DNA of 64,000 nucleotides, taken from positions 2,294,001 through 2,358,000 of the forward strand of contig NC_089445.1 of NCBI RefSeq assembly GCF_026210795.1, written 5' to 3'. Below, in pieces: positions 16,909 to 61,500 of this stretch. This stretch comes from Rhizophagus irregularis (taxonomy: Eukaryota > Glomeromycota > Glomeromycetes > Glomerales > Glomeraceae). The notes below the pieces were generated by a model. That model ran no database searches. It was not told the DNA's origin and worked only from the letters and a program-made list of their open reading frames with translations. A program made the translations under genes and the position numbers. Numbering within the stretch: the first letter of the stretch is position 1; each line of letters opens with the position of its first letter.

Positions 16909-17290
16909 TTCATAAGGAAACTTTTTTTTTTTTAAGATATTTTTCGGTGCAACTTTAATTTACAGGTTTGTGTTTTAATAATAAAGTAACCAATTTCCAA
17001 TTTGTAAAACTTATAAAATTGTATTAAAAATTGGAGTTGCTTGAAGAAAAATATATTTTTTTTTGTAATAAAAATTCAATTGTTATTTATTTAGCTTTAT
17101 AATTTTTATTTAAAAAATATAAATTTAAGGAATAATTCTTTCATATGATACATTTATTTGAAATTACGGGATGCTTTTTTTTTCAACCTCTATTATTTAA
17201 TTGGTTAAATTAATCGATTATCATTTACTGAAATCAAAAAAAAATCAAAAAAAAAATCCATTACACGTTTACACTATTTTTCTAAAAAAT

Positions 17291-19696
17291 ATGGCTAATA
17301 ACTTTGATGCAATGGATACTTTTTTAGAACCGCTTGATCTTGAAAATGAGCTTGATGATATTGAACCAAAACACTTTGAACCAAAAAAGCCTGGCAAAAA
17401 AAAGAACGGAGTATGGAATTATTTTATTGAAGAAGAAAGTAGAAAAGGTGGTCATTTAGCCTGTGTTTGTATATATTGTGGAGATGCTTGGAATAGAGGC
17501 AGAATTCCAGATATGATGGCGCATTTAGCATTACAATGTGAAAATGATGTGAAAAAACAGTATTTTAAAATTCTTTCAGAATCTTGTGACCAATCTTCTG
17601 AGAAATCTACTACAAAGAAATGAAAGCTTGATGAAGAGATTGCATCTGGTATTCAACCAAAAATCACATCTAAACTACAAAAATCATCAATTGATCCTGG
17701 ACAACGAAATCTTTATAACAAAGCATTAACCAGATTTTTTGTTTGTTATGGCGTTCCTTTTTCAATTGTAGAAAGTCCATTTTTTATTGATTTAGTAAAG
17801 AATTTATGTGCTGGTTATCAGCTTCCAGATAGAAAGACATTAAGTAATACTTGGCTTAATAATAAGGCAGTAAGAGTTACTGTTAATATGGAGGAAATAC
17901 TCGAGAGACAAGAAAATCTTTCTTTAGGTAAATTTTTTTGGATATTAGTACTAAAAAAGAAAATATAATAAATTATTAACATTTAATTTTAATTCTAAAG
18001 TATTAGATGGCTGAATCAGTAGCAACCATCATTCTTACTTTTCTTTTGTAGTCATTACTTCTGAAAGAAAAGAATATGTAATTAAAGTCAAGGATTATTC
18101 TAAAGACTCACATACTGGTCTTTTTACTGCTCAAGAAATAAAGAAAATTCTTACAGACATAGGTTCACAACGTTTTTCTTCAGTAGTATCAGATGGTGCT
18201 AGTGCTATGCAATTAGCTAAGCGATTAATTTCGGATGAGTATCCTAGAATTATGCCAGTTCGATGTATTGCTCACCACATTCAATTAATATGTACTGATA
18301 TTATGAAAAAGATCCCATTGGCAAAAAATCAAAATTTTGTGACATATTTTACTGAATCACACCAGTCTGGAGCTATTCTTCGTGAAGAAATCAAAAAAGA
18401 ATTAATTGTTGGTGGTGGATTAAAGAGTTCTGTCAAAACACGATGGAGTACTGCATGGGATTGCTGTTCATCAGTTTTACGTTTAGAAACTGTTTTTAAA
18501 AATGTAAGTTAATTTAAATTTAAAATTAAATTAAATTAAAAAATTGGATTAAATAAAATCTTTATATTTACATTATTAGATGTTGATTGATAATTCAAAA
18601 GCAATGAATCAATCCTTACGAATCTTGGTAAATAATCAAAATTTTTGGTCAAATGTTGAAGCTCTTGCAAACATTTTGGAACCTGCAAAAAATGCTGTAA
18701 AAAGCGTTGAATGCAAAAATACAACCATGGCAGATGTTTTTTTTGCGCTTATTCAAATGGCCATTTCAATTAAAGCTTTACCTACTGAAACTTCAGAGGA
18801 ATTGAAAGAATTTCGTCAAAAATGTATCCAATTTTATAATTATAGATGGAAACAATTTGATTTTGAATTATACTTACTAGCTTATTTTTTACATCCCAAG
18901 TATCGTGGAAAGGGTTTAATACCTGAAACATATCAAATAATTCAAAGAAAAGCATTAACTTTATGGCAAAAAATTGGTGGAGGTTCTAATTCAGCATTAG
19001 CACTTGCAATTCAAATGAATGATTATGATAATTATAAATCTCCTTATAATTTTTCTTACGTTGATGAACTTCAAACTTCCTCATCATGGTGGCTAGGATG
19101 TAAACAATCCAATCATTATTTGCAAGAATTAGCTTTATATATTCTTTCTATTGTTCCCCATAGTGCTAGCTGTGAATGTGTTTTTTCTATATTAAATTGG
19201 TTTACACAAAAAAGATGAAGCAGGTATGTATATTTATAATATTTGTTTGCTCAATTAACTGTTAAATTTTAATAATCTAAATTATAAATTTTTTTCTTTC
19301 ATTAGACTTAAAGTAGAAAAAGTATCTAATATGGCTCAATTGCATTCATTAAATGCATAGCAAGAACTTAATTATGCTGGCAAAAATCTATCTGAAGATG
19401 CTTTTAATCAAATAATGCAGGATTATGCCAAATCACTTACACTTGATTCAGATATGTTTGAAATAAATGATGACAATGATAATAATGACCCTTTTGAAAA
19501 TTTAATACCTGAAGAGGAAGAAGAAAATAATGATCAATTAAATGAAGATGATTCAAATTTATTAGTTGGAAATTTAATTAAATTGAATAATGTAAATAGA
19601 GAAGATATTGAGCTGGAAGAGGTTGATCATAGTGATTTAGAGTTTAGTGTAGATGATATTTTTGCTAATGTTAACCGTTTAAATAGTAAAATTTAG
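17291..19696 (+). pseudogene. hAT transposase with BED zinc finger, interrupted by stops
   Basis: Exons as read: 17291-17937, 18001-18503, 18580-about 19226, then about 19306-19696. The first ATG after the leader starts MANNFDAMDTFLEP. A BED finger (residues about 45-95) shows WNYF, CVCIYC and the His/Cys pair in HLALQC. The RNase-H-like core follows: LDG near 18006 is the first acidic site, VVSDGASAM with RCIAHHIQLIC comes next, and SASCECVFSILNWF is the dimerisation region. The C-terminus is strongly acidic (EEEEENNDQ). In-frame stops occur at about 17621, 18012, 19216 and 19358, each where the family has an Arg, Trp or Gln codon, so all can be single C-to-T or G-to-A changes. Transposase binds the element ends in the nucleus; this copy is probably dead. 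Confidence 0.82.
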
Positions 19697-33840: not shown

Positions 33841-35402
33841 TTAATTTTTACTATAATTTTCATGTTCATATATAAATTTAATTTTTTTATCTAAAACAAT
33901 ATTTAAGAAAATTAAAAATTGAATAACTAAAATAATAATTATTATTTTATTTTTTTTTAAAAAAAAAATTATTATACCTTGGTTATTATCATTATCTTCA
34001 ATTAGTTCATTATCAAACTTTCTTTTGTCTTTTTTTTTAAAAAAAAAACCATAGAATATTATTTAATACAATTATAATAAATAATAACTGAAAATAATAT
34101 ATATTAATATCATTAATACTTACCAAATCCTGAATTATTTTTAATTCTTATTGACTCTGCAGATTTGATAAGTGCACTTAAAGGTCTACTTTTATAAATG
34201 GCACCTGGATTTGTTATTACAGGTCCATTATCTGATAATGGTATAATCTTAGTAATTGAATTGTTTTCATAATCTCTAATAATTGCAATTTTTGATTGTA
34301 TATCAAAAGTTGGTGGTCTTTTACATGGATCAAAATGCAAACATTCTTGCATTAATTCAATATAACCTTTAGGTGCATTTATAAGAATTGGAGGCCGAAA
34401 CCCATCACATAATTTATTAATAAGAGCTATATCATGATTTTCCTGTCATTAATTCCCACATAATCATACCGAAACTATATATATCTGATGCTTTAGTATA
34501 TTTTTGACCTTGAAAAATCTCAGGGGCAATATAAGGAATGATTCCATAAACTTCATCATCATCATCATCATTCGCTGTTGCACATTTACTTAAATCACCT
34601 ATTACTGCTTTGTTACTCAGAAAGATATTTCCGCTATGATAATTTTTGTGCAGGATATTCACCATATGTAAACTGTGAAGTCCATCTATAATATTATGCA
34701 ATTTACTTAGCTTATTATTCCAATCCATATTAAAAAAATTATTGGCAATATAATGAGTTAAATTTCCTCCATTACAATATTTTGTAATTATCATGTAATT
34801 TTGAGTAATAGGATCATAAGTGATTCCATAATATTCATTAACACAAGTTCGATTTAGAGAAGAAATAGCAAAGCGATAAAATATTTTTAGCTAAAAACAA
34901 TGAGGTGTTAAAATAATTTTATGTTAAACTAATATAATTAAATAAATTAAATAATTTACCTCATTTAACTCTTTATTAGTGATGATTCCGGAATTGTTAA
35001 TTACTTTGAGAGCAACTACCATTTCAGCAAGACGATTATATTTTTGTTGTTTTTTGTTCCATTTTGATATTGGTCCATCAATCCAAATAGCCTTATAGAT
35101 TTTATTAAATCCTTCTTCAGCAATTAATTCTATATTTCGAATCTATCATAGGGAACAAATTCCATTTTCCCATTTCTTTTTTCAAAATTAATTAGTGTGT
35201 GTTTTATAAAGTCATCTATTAATTTATTTCCGCTTGATACAAGTATTGTCCTTGCTTCATAACATAAATGACAAATTTTATGAACTTCATCGAAATTTTT
35301 TCTTTTGTGATTACATTCATTACATTTCTTGTATTTTTGTTTAAGTGCGATTTTCTTCTTTTTGGATTCTCCTTTTAGTTTATGGTCAATCGATTGTTCC
35401 AT
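33841..35402 (-). pseudogene. Tyrosine-kinase-like kinase gene, decayed, catalytic Asp replaced
   Basis: Exons by comparison with the array at 46-58 kb: 35402-34960, 34890-34124, 34028-33978 and 33890-33841. The N-terminus has the zinc-ribbon-like pairs CNEC and CHLC, then SGNKLIDDFIKHT and KMEFVPYDRF. One base is missing after DRF relative to paralogues, shifting frame before the glycine loop (EEGFNKIY instead of EGGFSKIY). The catalytic loop is HKNYHSGN, so the HRD aspartate is Asn, and DFG is DLS. After MTG about 25 bases are lost, removing RRPFW and shifting frame again; the C-lobe then continues to NPGAIYKSRPLSALIKSAES and a DKRKFDN tail exon. It is the only minus-strand member here. The two frame changes make it a pseudogene unless they are assembly errors. 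Confidence 0.75.
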
Positions 35403-46223: not shown

Positions 46224-48109
46224 ATGGGTAACCCTTTAGATGATCTAAAACCAAACCTCAAGAAATGCTATTATTGCAAAAAACAAAATCCTTTAGAGGA
46301 AAGCCATGAAATTCGGCATAAATGTAGCTGTGACAGTTGTAGCAACAGAAAAGAACTTATTTTTATTTGTAATAAATGTTACAATGCAAAAACACAATTT
46401 ACACCAAGTGGAAATGGAGTTATTGATGAATTTATAGTTGAAACATTAGATACAATGTATGGGGAAATGGAATTTGTTTCTTATGATAAATTCAAAGATT
46501 TAGAATTTATTGCCGAAGGAGGATTTAGTAAAGTCTATAAAGCAATTTGGGAGGATGGTCCAATAACCAGTTGGAATCGTGAAAAGTTTAAATATAATCG
46601 TCAAGCTAATAAGACAATAGCTCTCAAGGAACTTAATAATTCTAAAGACATTAACTCTAAAGAGTTAAATGAGGTACAGAATCTTATACTATTTGTTATT
46701 AAAAAATATAAATAATTAAATATATTTTTTTTTCATTTTAGATCAAGATATTTCATAGGTTGTGTAATTATACTATTTGGGAACATGATTACAATAAATA
46801 CAAATACATTAATAAATATTATGGAATTACTCAACATCCTGAGTCCAAAAATTATATGATAATTATGAATTATTGTGAATCAGGAGATCTTACACATTAT
46901 ATAGCTAAAGATTTTTTTAATATAAAATGGTATAATAAGTTACACAAGTTATGTGATATTATATCTGGACTTAAAAAAATACACTACGCAGATATTATGC
47001 ATCAAGATTATCATAGTGGAAATATCTTTTTGGAAGCAAGTAGGGCTCCGATAATGGGAGATTTAGGATTAAGTAAATCTGCGATTGAATCAGCAGATGA
47101 TGAGAATAATGAAGTTTATGGCATCATTCCTTATATTGCTCCAGAGATTTTTCAAGGACAAAAATATACTAAAGCGTCAGATGTATATAGTTTTGGTATG
47201 ATTATGTGGGAATTAATGACAGGTAGAAGACCATTTTGGGATAGAAGTCATGATACAGATCTTATAATTGAAATATGTGACGGTCTTCGACCTCCGATTA
47301 TCACAAACGCACCTGAAGGCTATATTAAATTAATGAAAAAATGTTGGAATTCTGATCCAACTAAAAGACCAACGGCTAGAAGTTTACATAGTAAAATTTA
47401 TGCTGTGTTAGGAAAGGAATGGAAATATAGGTATAGTCCAACTGAAGTAATAGTATCACCAGATATTGGACCTATACCAACAATTAATCCAAATGCTATC
47501 TATAAAAGTAGACCTTTAAGTACAATGATAAAATCTGTAGAAAATACAATAAATACTAAAAAAATTGGTACGATTATTTTTATAATATGTTATTGATTTT
47601 ACATTGTTACTAATGACTAATATAATCTTACATTTATTTTTTTTTAAAAAAAAAACAGATAAAAGGAAGTTTGATGAATTTTTCGAAAATAACGAAGAAA
47701 ATGATGAGAATGGTAAAATAAAATTTTATTTTGTAATAATTTCATCATATGATAACTATATGTTAATTAACCATTTGTTTTTTTTTTAAAAAAAATATTA
47801 TAGATAAAACCTCTAAAAAATTATGCGTATATGAAAACCATGGTAAGTATTTAAGTTTATTTGGAGATTATTTTTTTTTATTATAAAATATAATAATTCA
47901 ATTAAATTTATATTGTTCTCTAGATTATTTGACAAAAGAATTTCGATTTAATATTGACAACAATGATATTGATAAAATTAATAAAATTGGTTATAATGGT
48001 AAGTAAATAGATATCGATTATCTAACAATGGCAATAGTAATTTTTAAACTTAATTTTATTCATAAATACAGGTTTATATATTACAAGAGAAATCGGATTT
48101 GATATTTGA
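46224..48109 (+). CDS. Kinase 1 of the array: tyrosine-kinase-like protein kinase, 493 aa
   Basis: Exons 46224-46673, 46742-47567, 47659-47712, 47804-47842, 47924-47998 and 48072-48109; 1482 nt in frame. Residues 15-52 hold Cys pairs (CYYC, CSCDSC, CNKC), a likely zinc ribbon. SGNGVIDEF (62-70) is the family's linker box. The kinase domain has the glycine loop EGGFSKVY (98-105), Lys135 in IALK, catalytic HQDYHSGN with Asp239, DLG at 257-259 in place of DFG, APE at 283-285, and the C-lobe Arg of KRP near 359. NPNAIYKSRPLSTMI near 400-412 is the lineage's C-terminal signature. Four small exons encode the tail (DKRKFDEFF..., DYLTKEF..., YITREIGFDI). It should phosphorylate Ser/Thr; the substrate is unknown. 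It is the only array member with all seven N-terminal Cys. Confidence 0.82.
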
Positions 48110-48603
48110 TTTTCAAAATTTGGGGTATGTCGTAACTTTGTATTCTACATGTAACATTAGTAATAAAAAAAAAAAATTATTTGTACAAAATAAAAAAAAA
48201 GGCATTTTTGTCATTTTGTCATTCTGTCATTTTAATAATCTGTATGATGACTGTAGTGTGCAGATCGCGACAATGTTAAAATCATTGTAATATTGTTAAT
48301 CATTTTGCATCAGCAGATCAATCGGAGGTAAACAGAGATGATCCAGGTGGTTTAATTCAAAATTTAATCGCGTGGTTAAAAATTTGAGCCGCATATATGC
48401 ATAATTAAATCAATTTTCAATATACGCTAATGAACGGTGTTTGCCGATGTATAGCATTGAAAAAAAAAAAAATTATATATATGTTCGTATGTTCTTAAAT
48501 CTTACATTTTAATTTCACATCGTCGGACAGTCAATAAACTATAAATAACATTCAACCAACGAAAAAACGTATTTATGCCAAATCATAATTGAAGAAAAAA
48601 AAA
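48110..48603. other. Spacer kinase 1-2, paralogous to spacer kinase 2-3
   Basis: It shares ordered blocks with 50237-50737: TTTTGTCATT runs, AAAATCATTGTAATATT, CAGCAGATCA.TCGG, AATATACGCTA and the TATA-like run (here TTATATATATGTTCG at 48473-48487). It carries the promoter of kinase 2. Confidence 0.7.
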
Positions 48604-50236
48604 ATGTGTAAAGGGATCTGTCAATCAGAGAAATCACTATTTATACCACAAAGTGGAAATAAAGTTGTTGATGATTTTATAAGATCCACACTAACAGATC
48701 GACAAAGGAAAATGGAATTTGTTCCTTATGATAGATTTAAAGATACAAAATTGATTGCAGAAGGTGGATTTAGTAAAATTTATAATACCACTTGGATTGA
48801 TGGTCCAATAAGTGATTGGGATGACAAAATAAAAATGTATAAACGCCTTGGTGAAACGATAGTCGTTCTTAAAGAACTTAACAACTCTAAAAATGCCACT
48901 CCTAAAGATTTAAATGAGGTACAGTAGATCATATCATGCTAGTTTGTTTATAAATCTTAATATTAAAATAATATTTTTTATTTTCAATAGCTCAATATAT
49001 TTCATAGCCTTATGAGCTTAAATAGCTTATTAAAAAAAGATGAAGACAAATATATTAATACTTATTATGGAATCACACAACATCCTGTTACTCAAAATTT
49101 TATGATAATTATGGAATATCATAAATTAGGAGATCTAACACATTATATAGCCAAAAACTTTTTTAATATTAGTTGGTATGACAAGTTAATTATATTATAT
49201 AACATTATATATGGACTTAAAAATATTCATGATGCAAATATTATTCATAAAGACTATCATAGTGGAAATATTTTTCTAGATAAAAATACTTATTCTGAAG
49301 ATATTTTTATAAAGAAAATAAAGAAAGATGAAAGTAATATTAAAGCAATAACAGGTGATTTAGGATTAAGTGCCATTGAACCATCAGATGATGATGAGGT
49401 ATATGGAATCATTCCTTTTGTTGCTCCAGAAATTTATCAAGGAGCGAAATATACTAGAGCGTCAGATATATATAGCTTTGGTATGGTTATGTGGGAATTA
49501 ATGACAGGTAGAAGACCATTTTGGGATAGAAGTCATGATGTATATCTTATAATTGAAATATGTGACGGTCGTCGTCCTCCGATTATCACAAACGCGCCTG
49601 AAGGTTATACTGAATTAATGAAAAAATGTTGGCATTCTGATCCAACTAAAAGACCGACGGCTAAAAGGTTATATCGTAAAATTCGTGCTATTTTAAGAAA
49701 GGAATGGAAATGTAGACATAATCCAACTAAAATAATAGAATCCCCAAATATTGGACCTATAACAAAAATTAATCCAAATGCTATCTATAAAAGTAGACCT
49801 TTGAGTACGATGGTAAGATCTGCAGAAAATACAATAAATATTAAAAAAATTGGTACTGATTATTTTCATAATAATATGTTATGATTTTATATTGTTGCTA
49901 ATAACTAATAATCTTGTATTTTTATTTTAAAAAAAAAAGATAAAAGAAAATTTGATGAATTTATTGAAAATAATGAAGAAAATGAGTATGGTAAAATAAA
50001 AATTTTATTTTGTAATAATTTCATCATATGATAATTATATGTTAATTTTGTATTGTTCTCTATTAGGTTATTTGACAAAAGAATTTCAATTTGATATTTA
50101 CATTAATAAAATTAATAATAATAATGGTAAGTAAATAGATATTGATTATCTAACAATAGCAATAATTTTCAACACAAATTTTTTATTCATAAATATAGAT
50201 TTTTATATTTCAAGAGAAATCAAATTTGATATTTAA
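48604..50236 (+). CDS. Kinase 2 of the array: chimeric kinase, 441 aa
   Basis: Exons 48604-48918, 48991-49852, 49940-49990, 50067-50126 and 50199-50236; 1326 nt in frame. The start is the ATG of MCKGICQSEK. The homologue of kinase 3's start is absent here (ataaataac instead of ataaatga), so the protein is shortened by about 24 residues. Kinase landmarks: EGGFSKIY at 53-60, Lys90, HKDYHSGN with Asp193, DLG at 228-230, FVAPE. Between the catalytic loop and DLG is an insert of about 14 residues shared with kinase 3. From about 49450 on, and in the tail exons, the sequence follows kinase 1 instead (DRSHD, IITNAPEGY, NPNAIYKSRPLST, DKRKFDEFIENNEE). It is best explained as an unequal-crossover hybrid of the neighbours. 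Activity is likely retained. Confidence 0.8.
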
Positions 50237-50737
50237 TTTTCAAAATTTGGGGGTATGTTTTAATATTTTTTAAAAAAAGGACTTTTGTTTACATTTAAAT
50301 TTATTAATAATAAAAAAAAAAAATTTACAGTACATAAAATCTAATTTAAAAGTCATTTCATTGCGTTGTGTAAAAAATATAAAAGGTTGGTCATTTTTTT
50401 GTCATTTGTCATTGCATGATTGTAGATCGACAACATTAAAAATCATTGTAATATTTGCCATTGTAAATCATTGTAAGGCCATCAGCAGATCAGTCGGAAG
50501 TAAACAAGGGAGATGATCTCAAAGATGACAATTCGTCATTGTTTAAATTGTATTTTAATTTAAGCATATATGCATAAACAAATCAATTTTTAATATACGC
50601 TAGTGATCATGAGCGGTATCTGCCGATTGTTAGTGTTGGAAAAAAAAAGTATGTACAGTATATATATTGTACTCAAATGGTACGCTCTTAAAATCTTAAA
50701 TTTGATTTCGCAGTGTCGAACGATAAATAAACTATAA
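50237..50737. promoter_or_regulatory. Spacer kinase 2-3 with promoter of kinase 3
   Basis: The second copy of the duplicated intergenic block. The TATA-like run AAAAAAAAGTATGTACAGTA followed by TATATATTG lies at 50641-50669, about 70-95 bases before the ATG. The block is part of the roughly 2.2 kb tandem unit. Confidence 0.6.
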
Positions 50738-52444
50738 ATGATATCTAATAATACTCAACCAACGAATAAGTCTAAGCCAAATTATAATCGAAGAAAGAAC
50801 AAAATATGTAATAAAGAGATTTGTCAATCAGAGAAATCACCATCTACACCACAAAGTGGAAATAAAATTGTTGATGATTTTATAAGATCCACACTAAAAG
50901 ATCGACAAAGGAAAATGGAATATGTTCCTTATGATAGATTCAAAGATACAAAATTGATTGCAGAAGGTGGATTTAGTAAAATTTATAATACCACTTGGAT
51001 TGATGGCCCAATAAGTGATTGGGATGACGAAATAAAAATATATAAACGCTTTGGTGAAACGATTATCGTTCTTAAAGAGCTTAACAACTCTAAAGACGTC
51101 ACTCCTAAAGATTTAAATGAGGTACAGTAGATCATATCATGCTAGTTTGTCTATAAATCTTAATATTAAAATAATATTTTTTATTTTCAATAGCTCAATA
51201 TATTTCATAGCCTTATGAGCTTAAATAGCTTATTAAAAAAAGATGAAGACAAATATATTAATACTTATTATGGAATCACACAACATCCTATTACTCAAAA
51301 TTTTATGATAATTATGGAATATCATAAATTAGGAGATCTAACACATTATATAGCTAGAAATTTTTTTGATATTAACTGGTACAATAAATTAAATATATTA
51401 CGAAATATTATATATGGACTTAAAAATATTCATGATGCAAATATTATTCATAAAGATTATCATAGTGGAAATATTTTTTTAGATAAAAGTACTTATCATG
51501 GAAATATTTTTATAAAGAAAGATGATCATTGTACAAGTAATATTAAAGCGATAACGGGTGATTTAGGATTAAGTGCCATTGAACAATCGGATAATGATGA
51601 TGATGAGATATATGGAATCATTCCTTTTGTTGCTCCAGAGATTTTTCAAGGACAAAAATATACTAAAGCTTCAGATATATATAGTTTTGGTATGATTATG
51701 TGGGAATTAATGACAGGTAGAAGACCATTTTGGAATCAAAATCATGATATACACCTTATCATTGAAATATGTGATGGTCTTCGTCCCCCAACTGTTACAG
51801 ATGTACCTAAAGGTTATACTGAATTAATGAAAAAATGTTGGAATTCTGATCCAGAGAAACGACCAAAGGCTGACGAAATGTCCGATGAAATTGAAACTAT
51901 TGGGAGTAATGAATCTAAGAGAAATGATTCAACTAAAATTATAAAATCATCTGATATTGGACCTAAAACAACAAATAATCCAGATGAAGTCTATGAAAGT
52001 AGATATTTAAGTACAATTATAAAATCTGTAGACACTACAAGAAGCTCAAGAACTGTCTTAAATAGTAAGTAAAATGATATAATGCATTATTTTATGTTTT
52101 ATATAAATAATCTTGCTTATATATATCTATATTTTTTTTTAAAAAAAAAGAAAAAAGAAAGTTTGATGATAACCTTTCAGAAGGTAATTAACAAGAACCG
52201 TATAATAAAAAAAAATCGGAATATTGAGTTATTACCGATCCTTATAATTAATTATTAAAATAATATTATAGATAAGATTGCAAAAAGAATTAAAATATTT
52301 GAACATGAATATGATGGTAAATATCTATCTTTTGAGAATACATTTGTTTTATTTTAAATAAATAATTTAATAAAATCTATATTTTTTTCTTTAGGATATA
52401 TCACAATGGAGATCGAATTTGATATTGACATTAATATTAATTAG
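50738..52444 (+). CDS. Kinase 3 of the array: tyrosine-kinase-like protein kinase, 460 aa
   Basis: Exons 50738-51121, 51194-52064, 52151-52183, 52272-52316 and 52395-52444; 1383 nt in frame. The N-terminus MISNNTQPTNKSKPNYNRR is basic and has only two Cys; the zinc-ribbon pairs of kinase 1 are gone. SGNKIVDDFIRST leads into the kinase domain: EGGFSKIY near 76-83, Lys113 in IVLK, HKDYHSGN with Asp216, DLG at 251-253, FVAPEIFQG. The insert before DLG (KSTYHGNIFIKKDDHCTSN) is shared only with kinase 2. The C-lobe after RRPFW is diverged (NQNHD, TVTDVPKGY, KADEMSDEIE), and the signature reads DEVYESRYLST. Intron 1 differs from that of kinase 2 at a single base, so their 5' halves separated recently. 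Tail exons are KKRKFDDNLSE, DKIAKRIKIFEHEYD and GYITMEIEFDI. Confidence 0.82.
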
Positions 52445-53698: not shown

Positions 53699-55459
53699 AT
53701 GGAAACCTTACCAGCAGAAAATGTTACGTTTATACTGCCTTTTAGTAATGAACTTCACACATGTAATAATAAAGTTATTGACGAATTTATAAAATATACA
53801 CATTCAAATATGAACGGTAAAATGGAATTTGTTCCCTATGACAAATTTAAAGATATAAAATTCATTACCGAAGGAGGATTTAGTAAAATTTATAAAGCTA
53901 TTTGGGTTGACGGACCACGCGATTGGAGTGCTCCACCACCTTATCGTAGTGGTAAGATGACAGTCGCACTTAAGGAGCTTAGTAATTCTAGTAACATCAA
54001 TTCTAAAGAACTAAATGAGGTGCGTATTTATTATCTTGTATTACAAGTCTTAATTTAAGATAAATTAATATTTAATACCTCATTTGTTTAGCTAATGATA
54101 TTTTATAATTATGCTACAAATAATAAAAATAAAAAAGGCTACACATATCACGATCACTTTCATTATATTAATAAATATTTTGGAATTACTCAAAATCCTA
54201 TTACCCAAAATTTTATGATAATTACAAAATATTATGAATCGGGAGACCTAAGGAATCATATAACTAATGATTTTTATAATATTAGTTGGTTTAGAAAGTT
54301 AATTAAATTACAATACATTTTAAACGGGCTTAAAAATATGCATGAAGCAAATATTATTCATCGAGATTATCATAGTGGAAACATCTTGGTGGCAACAGGT
54401 GAAACTCCGATAACAAGCGATTTAGGAATAAGTAAATCTGCGACTGAACCATTAAATGATGATGAAGAAGAAATTTATGGCATTATTCCTTATGTTGCTC
54501 CAGAGATTTTTCAAGGACGAAAATATACTAAAGCATCAGATATTTATAGTTTTGGTATGATTATGTGGGAATTAATGACGGGTAGAAGACCTTTTTGGGA
54601 TAAAGTTCATGATTCAGAACTTATTATTGAAATTTGTTATGGTCTTCGTCCTCCAATTATTACAAATGCGCCCGAAGGCTATACTGAATTAATGAAAGAA
54701 TGCTGGCATTCCGAACCAGATAAAAGACCAACGGCCAATAATTTACTATCAAAGGTTAAAATTATGTTTGATAATGAAATTAAAAATATTCTTTATTGTA
54801 AAAATCCAACTAAAATCATAGAATCACCAGATATTGGACCTGTCACAACTAATAATCCGGGTGCTATCTATAAAAGTAGACCTTTAAGTGAAATGATAAA
54901 ATCTGCAGCATCTACAATAAATTTAAAAAGTCTAAATATCACTTTAGAAATTGGTAACATATCTTTTTTTTTTTTATGATAATCGGTATCAATTATATGG
55001 TTTATTACAGTATTACTAATAAGGTCTTTTTTTTTTTAAGACAAAAGTTTTTTTAAAATAAAAGACAAAAGAAAGTTCGGTGATTTAACCGAAGATTATG
55101 ATGAGAATGGTACATTTTTTTCTAAGATAATTAATTTCATAATCTATATAATTAATTATTTTGTTATATTTGTTAAAATAACATAATAGATAAAATCATT
55201 AAAAAAGCTAAATTTTTTGAAAATAATGGTAAATCTTTTATTTTATTATAAAATTAATATGCTGTATGATATTTAATTTAAATTCATGTTTTTTACTAGG
55301 TTATTCAACTATTGAACTGGTATTCGATATTGATAATAATAATCGTAAGTAAATAATAATCATAATAATCATAATAATCTTTACGATTAATAACGATCTT
55401 TTTAATCAATTTAACACTTAATTTATTAATAATATATAGATTGTATTACAGTATTTTAA
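53699..55459 (+). CDS. Kinase 4 of the array: tyrosine-kinase-like protein kinase, 443 aa
   Basis: Exons 53699-54019, 54092-54953, 55065-55109, 55190-55228, 55300-55344 and 55440-55459; 1332 nt in frame. The N-terminus is short, with one Cys before NKVIDEFIKYTH. Kinase landmarks: EGGFSKIY (58-65), Lys92 in VALK, canonical HRDYHSGN with Asp199, DLG at 217-219, YVAPEIFQG, and NPGAIYKSRPLSEMIKSA. GPRDWSAPPPYRSGK between the glycine loop and Lys92 is shared only with kinase 5. The first intron starts with the less usual GTGCGT. The last exon is tiny (HCITVF); if its donor were not used, the frame would read AATCGTAAGTAA and end as RK, so either terminus is possible. Catalytic residues are intact. 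Confidence 0.82.
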
Positions 55460-56930: not shown

Positions 56931-58573
56931 ATGTCCGATTTTATAATTCCAAATAATATAACTTTACCAACATTTATGAATTTCGATTTTCAAAGATGCG
57001 GACATAAAGTTATTGATGAATTTATAAGTTACACACATTCAAAAAAATATGGTAAAATGGAATTTGTTCCCTATAACAAATTTAAAGATATAACATTCAT
57101 TCATGAAGGAGGATTTAGTAAAATTTATAAAGCTACTTGGAATGAAGGCCCACGTGATTGGCGTGCTCCTTCACCTTATCGTAGTGGTAAAATGACTGTC
57201 GCTCTTAAAGAGCTTAATGATTCTTATAACATTAACTCTGGAGAATTAGAAGAGGTAAAGTATTTATAATAAAATTTAAACAATATAATAATAATAAATC
57301 ATGAATAATTTATATATTTTATATATTTAAAATATTTAATTTTTTTTTTTTAGCTATATAATTATTCTATAAAAAGTATAAGTGAAGCAGGTTACGCATA
57401 TTATGATCACTTTAATTACATTAGTAAATATTTTGGTTTTACTCAGAATCCTATTACTAATAATTTTATGATAATTACAAAATATTATGAATCTGGAGAT
57501 TTAAGAAATCATATAAATAATGATTTTTATAATATTACTTGGTTTGATAAGTTAGTTAAATTGCGTTTTATTATAGGTGGACTTAAAAATATACATGATA
57601 TAAATATTATTCATCGAGATTATCATAGTGGAAATATCTTTTTAGCAGCACAAGAGACTCCAATAACTGGTGATCTAGGATTAAATAAATCTGCATTATG
57701 TTCTAGCGAAAATGAAATTTATGGCGTTGTTCCTTATGTTGCTCCAGAGATTTTTCAAGGACAAAATTATGTTAAAGCATCAGATATTTATAGTTTTGGT
57801 ATGATTATGTGGGAATTAATGACTGGTAGAAGACCTTTTTGGGATAAAGTTCATGATACAAACCTTATTGTTGAAATTTGCGATGGTCTTCGTCCTCCAA
57901 TTGTTACAAATGCACCTGATGGTTATATTGAATTAATGAATGAATGTTGGCATTTTGATCCAGTTAAAAGACCAACAGCTAGTAATTTACTATCAAAGGT
58001 TAAAACTATGTTGGAAAATGAAATTAATCGTAAAAATCCAACTAAAATCATAGAATCATCAGATATTGGACCTGTCATAACTAATAATCCGGGTGCTATC
58101 TATAAAAGTAGACCTTTAAGCGAAATGATAAAGTCTGCAATTTATATAATAAATTTAAGAAGTCTAACTATCATTTCAAAAATTGGTAACTTTCTCATTT
58201 TTTTATGATAATTTGTGTGAAATCATAAGAATTATTAACATTATTACTAATAATCTTATAATTTTTTTCTTTTTTTTTTAAAAAAAAAAAGACAAAAGAA
58301 AGTTTGATGATTTAATTAAAGATAATTATGAGAATGGTATTTTTTTTTTATTTTGCAATAATTAATTTAATTCATAATTTACATAATTAATGATTTTTTT
58401 TTTTTTTGAAAATCATATCAGATAATTCTAAAAAAATCAAATCGTGTGAAAGTGAAAATAATGGTAAATATCTTTTTTTTATTTTATTTTTCATTTTTAT
58501 ACTTTATAATTAAAATTTATGATCTTTAGATTATTTAATGGAGCTTGATATTGGAATTGAAACAAATACTAGC
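56931..58573 (+). CDS. Kinase 5 of the array: tyrosine-kinase-like protein kinase, 428 aa
   Basis: Exons 56931-57254, 57354-58185, 58292-58336, 58422-58463 and 58530-58573; 1287 nt in frame. After a short N-terminus with one Cys comes HKVIDEFISYTHS, then EGGFSKIY (59-66), Lys93 in VALK, HRDYHSGN with Asp197, DLG at 215-217, YVAPEIFQG, RRPFWDKVHD and NPGAIYKSRPLSEMIKSA. It is closest to kinase 4 over the whole domain. The tail exons are DKRKFDDLIKDNYEN, DNSKKIKSCESENN and DYLMELDIGIENKY, then TAG. A relic of the next tail exon survives downstream (YYITKEICNFF at about 58666-58700) but is now out of phase, so the tail is shortened by a one-base change in exon 5. Kinase activity should be unaffected. 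Confidence 0.82.
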
Positions 58574-61500
58574 ATATCAAATAATAATTGTAAGTAAACG
58601 AATAATGTTTATTGTTAATAGTGTATTACTTGTATCAAAGCTAACATTGCATTTATATTACTTAGATTACATTACTAAAGAAATATGTAATTTCTTTTAG
58701 TTTGGAATAGTTGAATTTAATTACGATTGGTTCCGTATTTAATTATGTTATTAATTTGGCCCGACTATAAAGATTGATAGAATATTAGAGTATGGTACTC
58801 GAACATTTCGGAATGCTAAAATAGAATGAACTTCTTCATACAGTATATAATTTGTTTATAAATAATTTGTTTATAAAATATAATTCGTTTATAACATATA
58901 TATTTTTTCATAAAATATTACTTTATATGGTTTGGTTACTTTATTTAAATTAACAAAAAAAAGAAATGTCAAATAAAATAATCAATTATGTGCATGCACA
59001 GGTTATAATAAAAAGGAATATGATCGAAAAATAGTTGAATGCCAATTATGATATATAGCTGAACACTGTTTGTGTGCTTCTTGAGCAGGGGATATATATA
59101 AAGATATCATCTGTTGAATTACACAACTAGAAATTTGATGAGGGCATCGGCATATTTTATAATAGTTAGTAAACATCCTATCGTATATCCCCACGATGTT
59201 GTAAACAATTGGGAACTGAATATATTTTGTGAAATGATTAGGTGATATAATTTAATAATGAATGTTGACAACGACAAATCTATAATATATATGATCGCAG
59301 CAGGAGAATACTTTTGCATTATCTTTTCTCTCAATCACGAATAACATTATTTGGATGGTGTTCATGTTTTAGAACAAACCATTCTTATTGAACCTACTAT
59401 TAAGCTCACTCATTATCAATAAACACCCAAAGATATTACGAAAAAATTGAGGGGAAATTCTTCGACCATGTATAACATTTGGAATCCCTTTGAGATAGCT
59501 TTTCTTCCAAATATGGATACCCAGAGATTCTAAATATTAGTAACAATTCCAACTATTTTTTTTTTCGTTTCTATTTTTTTTACTCTTTTAGATCTTTAGT
59601 TCTTAGGCGGAGGACTTGGAAAGAACAGTGCTTCTCCTGACTTCCACTTTATTGTTTAAATAGATGTGGGAATCGAAAAAATTAAAAAATAGTTAATAAA
59701 TAAAAGAAATGAAAAACTTTTACTCAGCTATGTTCTAAATTGAAGTGTTTTATGTAAAATAAAGGAGACAGATATACTTGAAAGATTTTTCACAAAAATT
59801 TTGTCTTTATTAGGTAAAAAAAAATGATATTTTGTTTAATTTTTAATCATCCTTTTTATTCTATTTTATCTTTTTCGTTGTTTCAGAGGAAATCTTAATA
59901 GAAATTCGACATGCTATTTATTTAGATGCTCTATAAAAAATTCAATACGATCACAAATGACAATACAACAATATGCTATCTATGGTGAGATTTGTCGAGT
60001 AATCAATAAAGTAATGCGTTTTTACCACGAGAAAAAAAAAGACCCGTTGCATAGAAGATCGGCTTTGCTAAACTTAATCAGGGAAATTTTAAATCATCAC
60101 GTGATTTATGATGAGGCTTCGATTCAGAAAGTTCCTGTTCCAAGACAGCAATATAAGATATTGGTATAGATAGTTAGTGATTTTAGCGTACACATAATGG
60201 ATTATTCAATAATTTAATAAATAATTCGGTATTGCAATATAAAAATTTTCTTTTTATATTGTACAAACGGACCAAAACCGACGTGGAGATAAATAGTCCT
60301 ATCGTGTCAAACACGCCAGCCCATAGCTCCTGAATGAAATGTGTATAGAAAAATTATTAACTTTTATTTACATGTGATTCTTTGGATCGTTCATTGTTTA
60401 CAGATGCTACCGTTGTCTCCTCAGAAAGTTCTATCCAATTTCTTTCTCTCTGCTATCACCTTCACCACATCATCAATATACCGATGCACAATTTGAGCAA
60501 TGCAGTTAGACATGTTGCTACTATTGAACAAACGAAAATGGTTGAAGTACATATATTGAGTAGCATCTTTGCAAAAAAACACGTACCATTATGTTTTCCC
60601 AAGTATGGGAATCGAACGTTCTTTAGGCGGTGATGTCAAATGAAAGCAATTTGATAGGGTTATCAGAGACATGATCGAGAATATTATTTAAGGGAGTGAC
60701 TACTTCGCATGGAACAGGATTGGATCTGACTTCAGGCGAAATTTCCTAATGATATGTGCAATTGTAGTTACATTCCGAAAAATGCCCTTAAGGTATTTAT
60801 TTTTTCAAAGTATTTATTTTATTAGTGCGTTAGCTATATTTCTTTGGAACCTTCTCGTTGTTAGCAACAATTTTCATAATGCGCTTCGCGTTTGATAAAA
60901 TACCTGAAGGGTATCCCGGGGGTGTGTGTTAGTAATTCGCGGGTGAGTTTTCAAAAAGTATATAGTATATTCATGCTTGACACATATCGTGTATATTTGT
61001 AAAACGCTTGAATTAGTTCTTTAATTATGATGTTCTATTTATAGTAATTATGCCGTCTAAAATAGGACATTTTAGCTATATTGAATTTACAATAAGAAGG
61101 ATTTCTTGATGAAACTTGAATTAAAAAAAATAGTTCTTAATTGTAATAATTTGAAGAGTGAGATTTATTTGTTCCGCAAAAATTTCTAATAGCTCTCGTG
61201 TAAAATTATTACCGTATATTGCGGCCGGGTATGAGTAGGGATACTATACATGAGGGGTACTATGAACGTATACGGTATAAAGTATAAATCCGGTTTAAGA
61301 TGCAATTTATTCAAATTCATACTTGACATTATTAAACTTGTTGTTTCGAGCTTATTCATAAAAAAAACATGACTGCATACTAATTACCATATATTTGATT
61401 GACCGTATGTTTTATTTTGTGAAACCTAATAAATTTATATGGTTATATCGAGCCAAAAATTTCATTTTACAAAATTATATACATATTATTTATTATTTAG

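Follow-up and report, generated by a model that had tools for sequence, protein, structure and literature searches.

How does a tandem array of kinase genes come to hold a member whose two ends have different nearest relatives? The question is posed by a 64,000-nucleotide stretch of the Rhizophagus irregularis genome (C17:2294001-2358000, hereafter the window), in which five kinase genes, K1 to K5, all lie head to tail. A preliminary description of this sequence had proposed that K2 follows K3 up to about 49440 and K1 after about 49500, as a hybrid of its two neighbours. We examined K2 against these neighbours, the rest of the kinase family and the searched genome (146,748,485 bases, 32 contigs), and we confirm that K2 is a hybrid, with a 5' part from a gene B (K3) and a 3' part from a gene A (K1). 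It is most simply accounted for by a single unequal exchange, which is a known mechanism and of which K2 is a clean new example.

The switch of nearest relative inside K2

In 100-column sliding windows, K2 is 91-100% identical to K3 in most windows from 48630 to about 49420, with a drop to 81-85% between 49132 and 49376, while its identity to K1 over the same part is 61-82%. From 49520 to 49861 the relation is reversed, at 82-92% to K1 and 66-80% to K3. The identities cross over at the junction, and K2 is not uniformly similar to either neighbour along its length. These windows were used only up to K2 position 50051, because K2 is without one small tail exon of K1 and the alignment is faulty beyond that point. 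In a codon alignment with 277 informative sites, the best split of K2 lies after 49420 and before 49461, and the ratio of K3-like to K1-like sites is 171:19 to its left and 17:70 to its right. A single-switch model gains 69.2 log-likelihood units, with a support interval of 49418-49525, and the maximum descent is 53, compared with 17 for the largest shuffled value (0 of 20,000 site shuffles reached the observed one). A change of nearest relative near 49450, which the preliminary description had predicted for both sliding identity and recombination tests, is thus seen with both.

The same switch is recovered, with a gain of 53.3, when the parents are taken as B2 and A2, the counterparts of K3 and K1 in a second array. 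Among 95 triplets (105 were possible, and 10 with fewer than 30 informative sites were dropped), K2 with parents K1 and K3 ranks at the top; for the 52 of them in which K2 has no part, the highest gain is 8.2. In an alignment of 29 family members K2 again comes first, with a gain of 65.4, versus at most 10.1 within 49400-49560 for K1, A2, K3, B2, K4, K5 and C2. For K1, A2, K3 and B2 this last control leaves out K2 and the gene's own copies; for K4 and K5 it leaves out own copies only.

Trees of the two parts agree with this result. A seven-gene analysis of the 5' part rules out the topology of the 3' part (approximately unbiased test, AU, 4e-11). With 29 members, grouping of K2 with K1/A2 is rejected in the 5' part (AU 1.6e-4) and grouping with K3/B2 in the 3' part (AU 0.011), and when the 3' part is extended through the tail up to 50045, for eight sequences, the latter grouping is rejected at AU 0.0013. 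Genome-wide searches, in each of which the best 40 candidates were scored, rank K3 (1239 bits) and B2 (967) before A2 (375) for the 5' half of K2, and A2 (647) and K1 (638) before the next candidate (238) for the 3' half with the tail.

Individual marks are less uniform than had been proposed. As described, K2 and K3 share the insert before DLG; K1, K4 and K5 lack it. Among the marks listed as K1-like, K1 is singled out by DRSHD, by the tail exons and by the spacer, but not by IITNAPEGY, which K4 has too, or by YKSRPLS, which occurs also in K4 and K5.

The surroundings of K2 repeat as well. The hybrid stands between its two parents, in the order A, B/A, B that had been noted, and the two copies of the repeated unit, whose ends we placed inside the junction stretch by choice, are collinear from end to end in a global alignment, spacer included. 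The K1-K2 and K2-K3 spacers are identical at 348 of 491 aligned bases (71%) in such an alignment, and their local alignment score of 375, versus a maximum of 131 in 200 shuffles, upholds the earlier view that the spacer behind K2 repeats the one behind K1. A genome search with the K1-K2 spacer recovered, besides the query itself, just two matches: the K2-K3 spacer and a short segment that lies upstream of B2. The longest run of identity between K1 and K3, 56 bp (K2 49469-49524), and the second longest, 40 bp (49421-49460), adjoin each other at the junction.

Origin of the hybrid and later changes in the arrays

K2 probably arose from one unequal exchange between adjacent A and B genes. In such an event A (now K1) and B (now K3) would have been neighbours that misaligned on pairing, either between sister chromatids or between homologous chromosomes. 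Within a near-identical stretch of about 100 bp in the kinase domain, an exchange would then have linked B's 5' part to A's 3' part, yielding A - B/A - B with one added repeat of about 2.2 kb. Afterwards intron 1 of K2, with a little sequence on either side, would have been copied over K3, while K1 and K3 would have stayed, or become, nearly identical to A2 and B2. What we observe directly is a single switch, its location, a collinear unit with its spacer and an intact reading frame; from these we infer one reciprocal exchange, not two steps.

Synonymous divergence (dS) provides a measure of the age of each half. The 5' part of K2 has a dS of 0.19 to K3 (23.2/135, outside the conversion tract described below) versus 0.59 to K1, and its 3' part has a dS of 0.12 to K1 (8.5/74) versus 0.46 to K3. 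The matching halves do not differ significantly in this respect (23/135 versus 9/74, Fisher p 0.42).

The near-identity of intron 1 in K2 and K3 (71/72) had been counted as part of the K3-like half of the hybrid. The near-identity holds, but it is most simply assigned to a later and separate conversion. Inside a tract of 160-189 bp in K3, 38 of the 39 informative sites are K2-like, none is B2-like and one is neither, whereas the flanks are B2-like at 37/38 and 39/41 sites; none of 20,000 shuffles gave a K2-like run as long as the 38 sites observed, the maximum being 12. The intron identity of both K2 and K3 to B2 is 52/71, and elsewhere in the gene K3 and B2 are 95.7-100% identical per 100-column step. 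On the simplest reading of these patterns, K2 would have been copied into K3 after K3 and B2 had separated. Replacement of the stretch in B2 by a donor since lost would be a less simple alternative; a genome search with the B2 version of the tract gave no relative closer than K2 and K3, both at 76%. At C17:2367870-2368070, B2 has a different intron 1 and a start of exon 2 that is 21 bp longer than in K3. Intron near-identity in such arrays may therefore come from later conversion, which makes it unfit to date or place a hybrid.

The second array, comprising A2 and B2, lies about 25 kb downstream on the same contig (locus L011, C17:2364911-2369613). A2 (C17:2364911-2366783) is 97.8% like K1 over 1924 columns, from just before the ATG to just after the stop, and dS is 0.01-0.03 for K1/A2 and K3/B2 outside the tract. 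The spacer between K3 and K4 is 90% identical (809/902) to that between B2 and f2, a decayed fragment downstream of it; the flanks upstream of K1 and A2 were compared and are unrelated. Judging from the closeness of the gene pairs and from this pattern of spacers and flanks, both arrays appear to have been duplicated or homogenised after K2 arose. Any homogenisation would have been partial, affecting only part of each copy, and the halves and spacers remain distinct. We considered whether array 2 is the untouched A-B state from before the exchange and rejected it as proof: the adjacency of A2 and B2 fits, but the spacer and dS do not, and an array duplicated or homogenised after K2 arose would not be usable as an untouched ancestor.

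Several observations weigh against a single exchange as the whole account. Divergence within the unit is not fully even, with dS between K2 and K3 at 0.10 in exon 1 versus 0.28 in the 5' part of exon 2 (p 0.065), the spacers at 71% identity and the tail introns of K1 and K2 at 81%, 95% and 81%. Neither half of K2 is as close to its parent as K1 is to A2 or K3 to B2, and the A2-B2 spacer is mostly unrelated to the spacers of array 1, the likeness being mainly beside the B gene. In the seven-gene trees, rejection of the 5' topology by the 3' exon part is marginal (AU 0.045; Kishino-Hasegawa and Shimodaira-Hasegawa (SH) tests 0.054). Finally, in the coding sequence of exons 1 and 2 (1177 bases), a random point would by length hit the 56-bp run in 4.8% of cases and either of the two longest runs in 8.2%, so the position of the junction is modestly supportive and not decisive.

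The order of the genes had been called the exact product expected of unequal crossing-over. Unequal crossing-over is indeed the simplest account, but "exact" is too strong, because duplication of A with its spacer followed by 5' conversion, or a template switch, leaves the same structure. In the first of these routes, a tandem duplication of A and spacer (A, A, B) would be followed by conversion in which B overwrites the 5' half of the middle gene, or the mirror image would take place from A, B, B. Gene conversion is demonstrably active here, as the K3 tract attests, and the closer match of K2 to K3 in exon 1 than in exon 2 also speaks for this route. However, two events are required, the conversion tract would have to span ~0.8 kb or more versus the 160-189 bp seen, and the halves of K2 show no significant difference in synonymous divergence; we consider these two steps unlikely. 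Less likely again is a non-reciprocal duplication at the identical stretch of the junction, by single-strand annealing or by a switch of template during replication. The product would be the same and the 56-bp run would serve either route, and one genome alone does not separate this from crossing-over.

Two further explanations seem to us highly improbable. Three genes alone can be read in more than one direction, and K2 could be the original form, with the 5' half of K1 and the 3' half of K3 replaced from other genes. This would require two replacements at the same place. Set against the remaining family, none of K1, A2, K3 and B2 has a switch comparable to that of K2, and among the best 40 candidates there are no close outside donors beyond A2 and B2. 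An assembly artefact might also be suspected, near-identical repeats being prone to misjoining in general. K2, however, carries 67 differences from K3 over 865 sites (48604-49468) and 39 from K1 over 384 (49469-49852), so that an erroneous joining of K1 and K3 as they now stand does not explain it; bases private to K2 number 34/802 in the 5' part and 22/381 in the 3' part, where such a misjoining would give none.

Other possible hybrids in the family

The preliminary description had gone on to state that K2 shows how the family grows. The scan does not establish this, K2 being the sole clear hybrid among the 29 members covered. Switching triplets with a gain above 12 number 129 and occur in 16 of the 29 children, but the strong ones are mostly echoes of K2, and in the other children the best breakpoints lie at scattered positions. 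Three further candidates were too weak to retain. L031 (C1:5003400-5005500) joins the L017 group in its 5' part, and its 3' part excludes this grouping by the AU test (0.038) but not by the SH test (0.216); L028 (C17:3207000-3209000) has the reverse pattern, with AU 0.072 in the 5' part; and a grouping of L026 with L027 is excluded in the 5' part (AU 0.0045) and not in the 3' part.

Around array 2 lie two decayed kinase fragments with stops in the three forward frames, f1 (C17:2359089-2359864) and f2 (C17:2370196-2371030). We rejected the idea that they end at the K2 switch and so mark a hot spot: beyond GGTATG, f1 continues as sequence of no relation to the family, and f2 carries internal deletions, past which it goes on with a shrunken 3' part.

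K4 and K5 are closer to each other in the 3' part than in the 5' part, with 12/78 versus 46/148 synonymous differences (p 0.011, uncorrected, with several comparisons made) and dS of 0.17 versus 0.40 (positions 54495-54929 and 57730-58137). They also share a 51-bp identical run at the position that matches the K2 junction. A second exchange has possibly taken place there between K4 and K5. It is doubtful that the conserved stretch around the K2 junction, just after APE in the kinase domain, is a recurrent exchange point at which the family swaps front and back halves within the domain.

Gene models, predicted protein and significance

The exon models used, with GT/AG checks on the exon borders, are open throughout in K1, K2, K3 and K5 (Table 1). 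The predicted products have a protein kinase fold according to Pfam PF07714 and PF00069; PF07714 matches exon 2 of K1 (E 2.8e-38), K2 (E 1.5e-34) and K3 (E 1.6e-35), and the K2 match scores 119.9 bits, compared with a curated cut-off of 23.1. In the alignment K2 keeps VLK, HKD and DLG, which we take to have their usual roles as kinase motifs. Among solved structures, the best relative of K2 exon 2 is 3zfm_A, an Eph receptor kinase (E 6.8e-21), in which the ASDVWSYGIVMWEVMS segment, presumably helix F of the C-lobe, corresponds to the junction. The K2 protein should thus have B as the source of its upstream region, N-lobe, catalytic loop, DLG segment and insert, with the end of its C-lobe and its tail coming from A, and the pairing of regulation and substrate docking may have changed. 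Non-synonymous divergence is 0.106 between K2 and K1 in the 3' part, close to dS there, and 0.078 between K2 and K3 in the 5' part. The former value suggests that the protein of the back half changed quickly; relaxed and positive selection are not separated by it.

Table 1. Positions of the kinase genes, the hybrid junction and the repeated elements (window coordinates unless marked C17)
Feature	Position	Strand	Remarks
Kinase 1 (K1, parent A)	46224..48109	+	493 aa, open; exon model with GT/AG checks
K1 exons	46224-46673, 46742-47567, 47659-47712, 47804-47842, 47924-47998, 48072-48109	+	exon model
Kinase 2 (K2, hybrid B/A)	48604..50236	+	441 aa, open; exon model and recombination tests
K2 exons	48604-48918, 48991-49852, 49940-49990, 50067-50126, 50199-50236	+	exon model
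Kinase 3 (K3, parent B)	50738..52191	+	431 aa in model used, open
K3 exons	50738-51121, 51194-52064, tail exon from 52151	+	more tail exons possible to about 52444
Kinase 4 (K4), exons 1 and 2	53699..54953	+	control sequence; 0 stops in 394 aa
Kinase 5 (K5)	56931..58597	+	control sequence; 436 aa, open
Hybrid junction	49421..49524	+	breakpoint interval; two longest K1/K3-identical runs inside
Unit copy 1 (K1 3' part, spacer, K2 5' part)	47216..49500	+	global alignment with copy 2
Unit copy 2 (K2 3' part, spacer, K3 5' part)	49501..51709	+	global alignment with copy 1
Spacer K1-K2	48110..48603	+	homologous to spacer K2-K3
Spacer K2-K3	50237..50737	+	homologous to spacer K1-K2
K3 conversion tract, K2-like	51105..51264 (outer limits 51100-51289)	+	exon 1 end, intron 1, exon 2 start
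K2 stretch matching K3 tract, putative donor	48902..49061	+	offset 2203 from K3
B2	C17:2367495-		nearly identical to K3 except 51105-51264

Exon 1 of K1 has a cysteine-rich start (46224-46673) with several CxxC pairs, found also in A2 and missing from K2-K5; a Pfam scan of it gave no match. A further family member lies on the opposite strand at 34619-35235, with tblastn pieces in more than one frame, and a 120-residue open reading frame (ORF) at 34432-34794 matches PF07714. The ORFs at 17201-17623 and 1189-2016 gave borderline zf-BED matches, with DUF3504 and QRICH1 below their cut-offs. An Rfam scan of the window gave no match, and its G+C content is 19-30% per 4-kb step.

Hybrid genes from unequal crossing-over in tandem arrays are familiar from haemoglobin Lepore, the red-green opsins and maize Rp1. 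K2 resembles these in the order A, B/A, B, in a single junction within a stretch shared by the parents and in a unit repeated with its spacer. Unlike them, its parents are far more diverged (K1-K3 dS about 0.4-0.6), and the gene is a fungal kinase. No title on this locus was found among the literature matches listed. R. irregularis has an expanded kinase repertoire of 2,533 members (PMC10234402), and the available portions of that paper give no account of this locus or of hybrid copies.

K2 is a clean, datable case in which a tandem kinase array gains a gene whose halves are newly combined, in an arbuscular mycorrhizal fungus long thought to be asexual. If the junction were recurrent, a front comprising the upstream region, the ATP lobe and the DLG insert would be exchanged against a back comprising the C-lobe and tail, giving new signalling combinations. 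Recurrence of the same junction across the family would point to within-domain shuffling as one source of kinase diversity.

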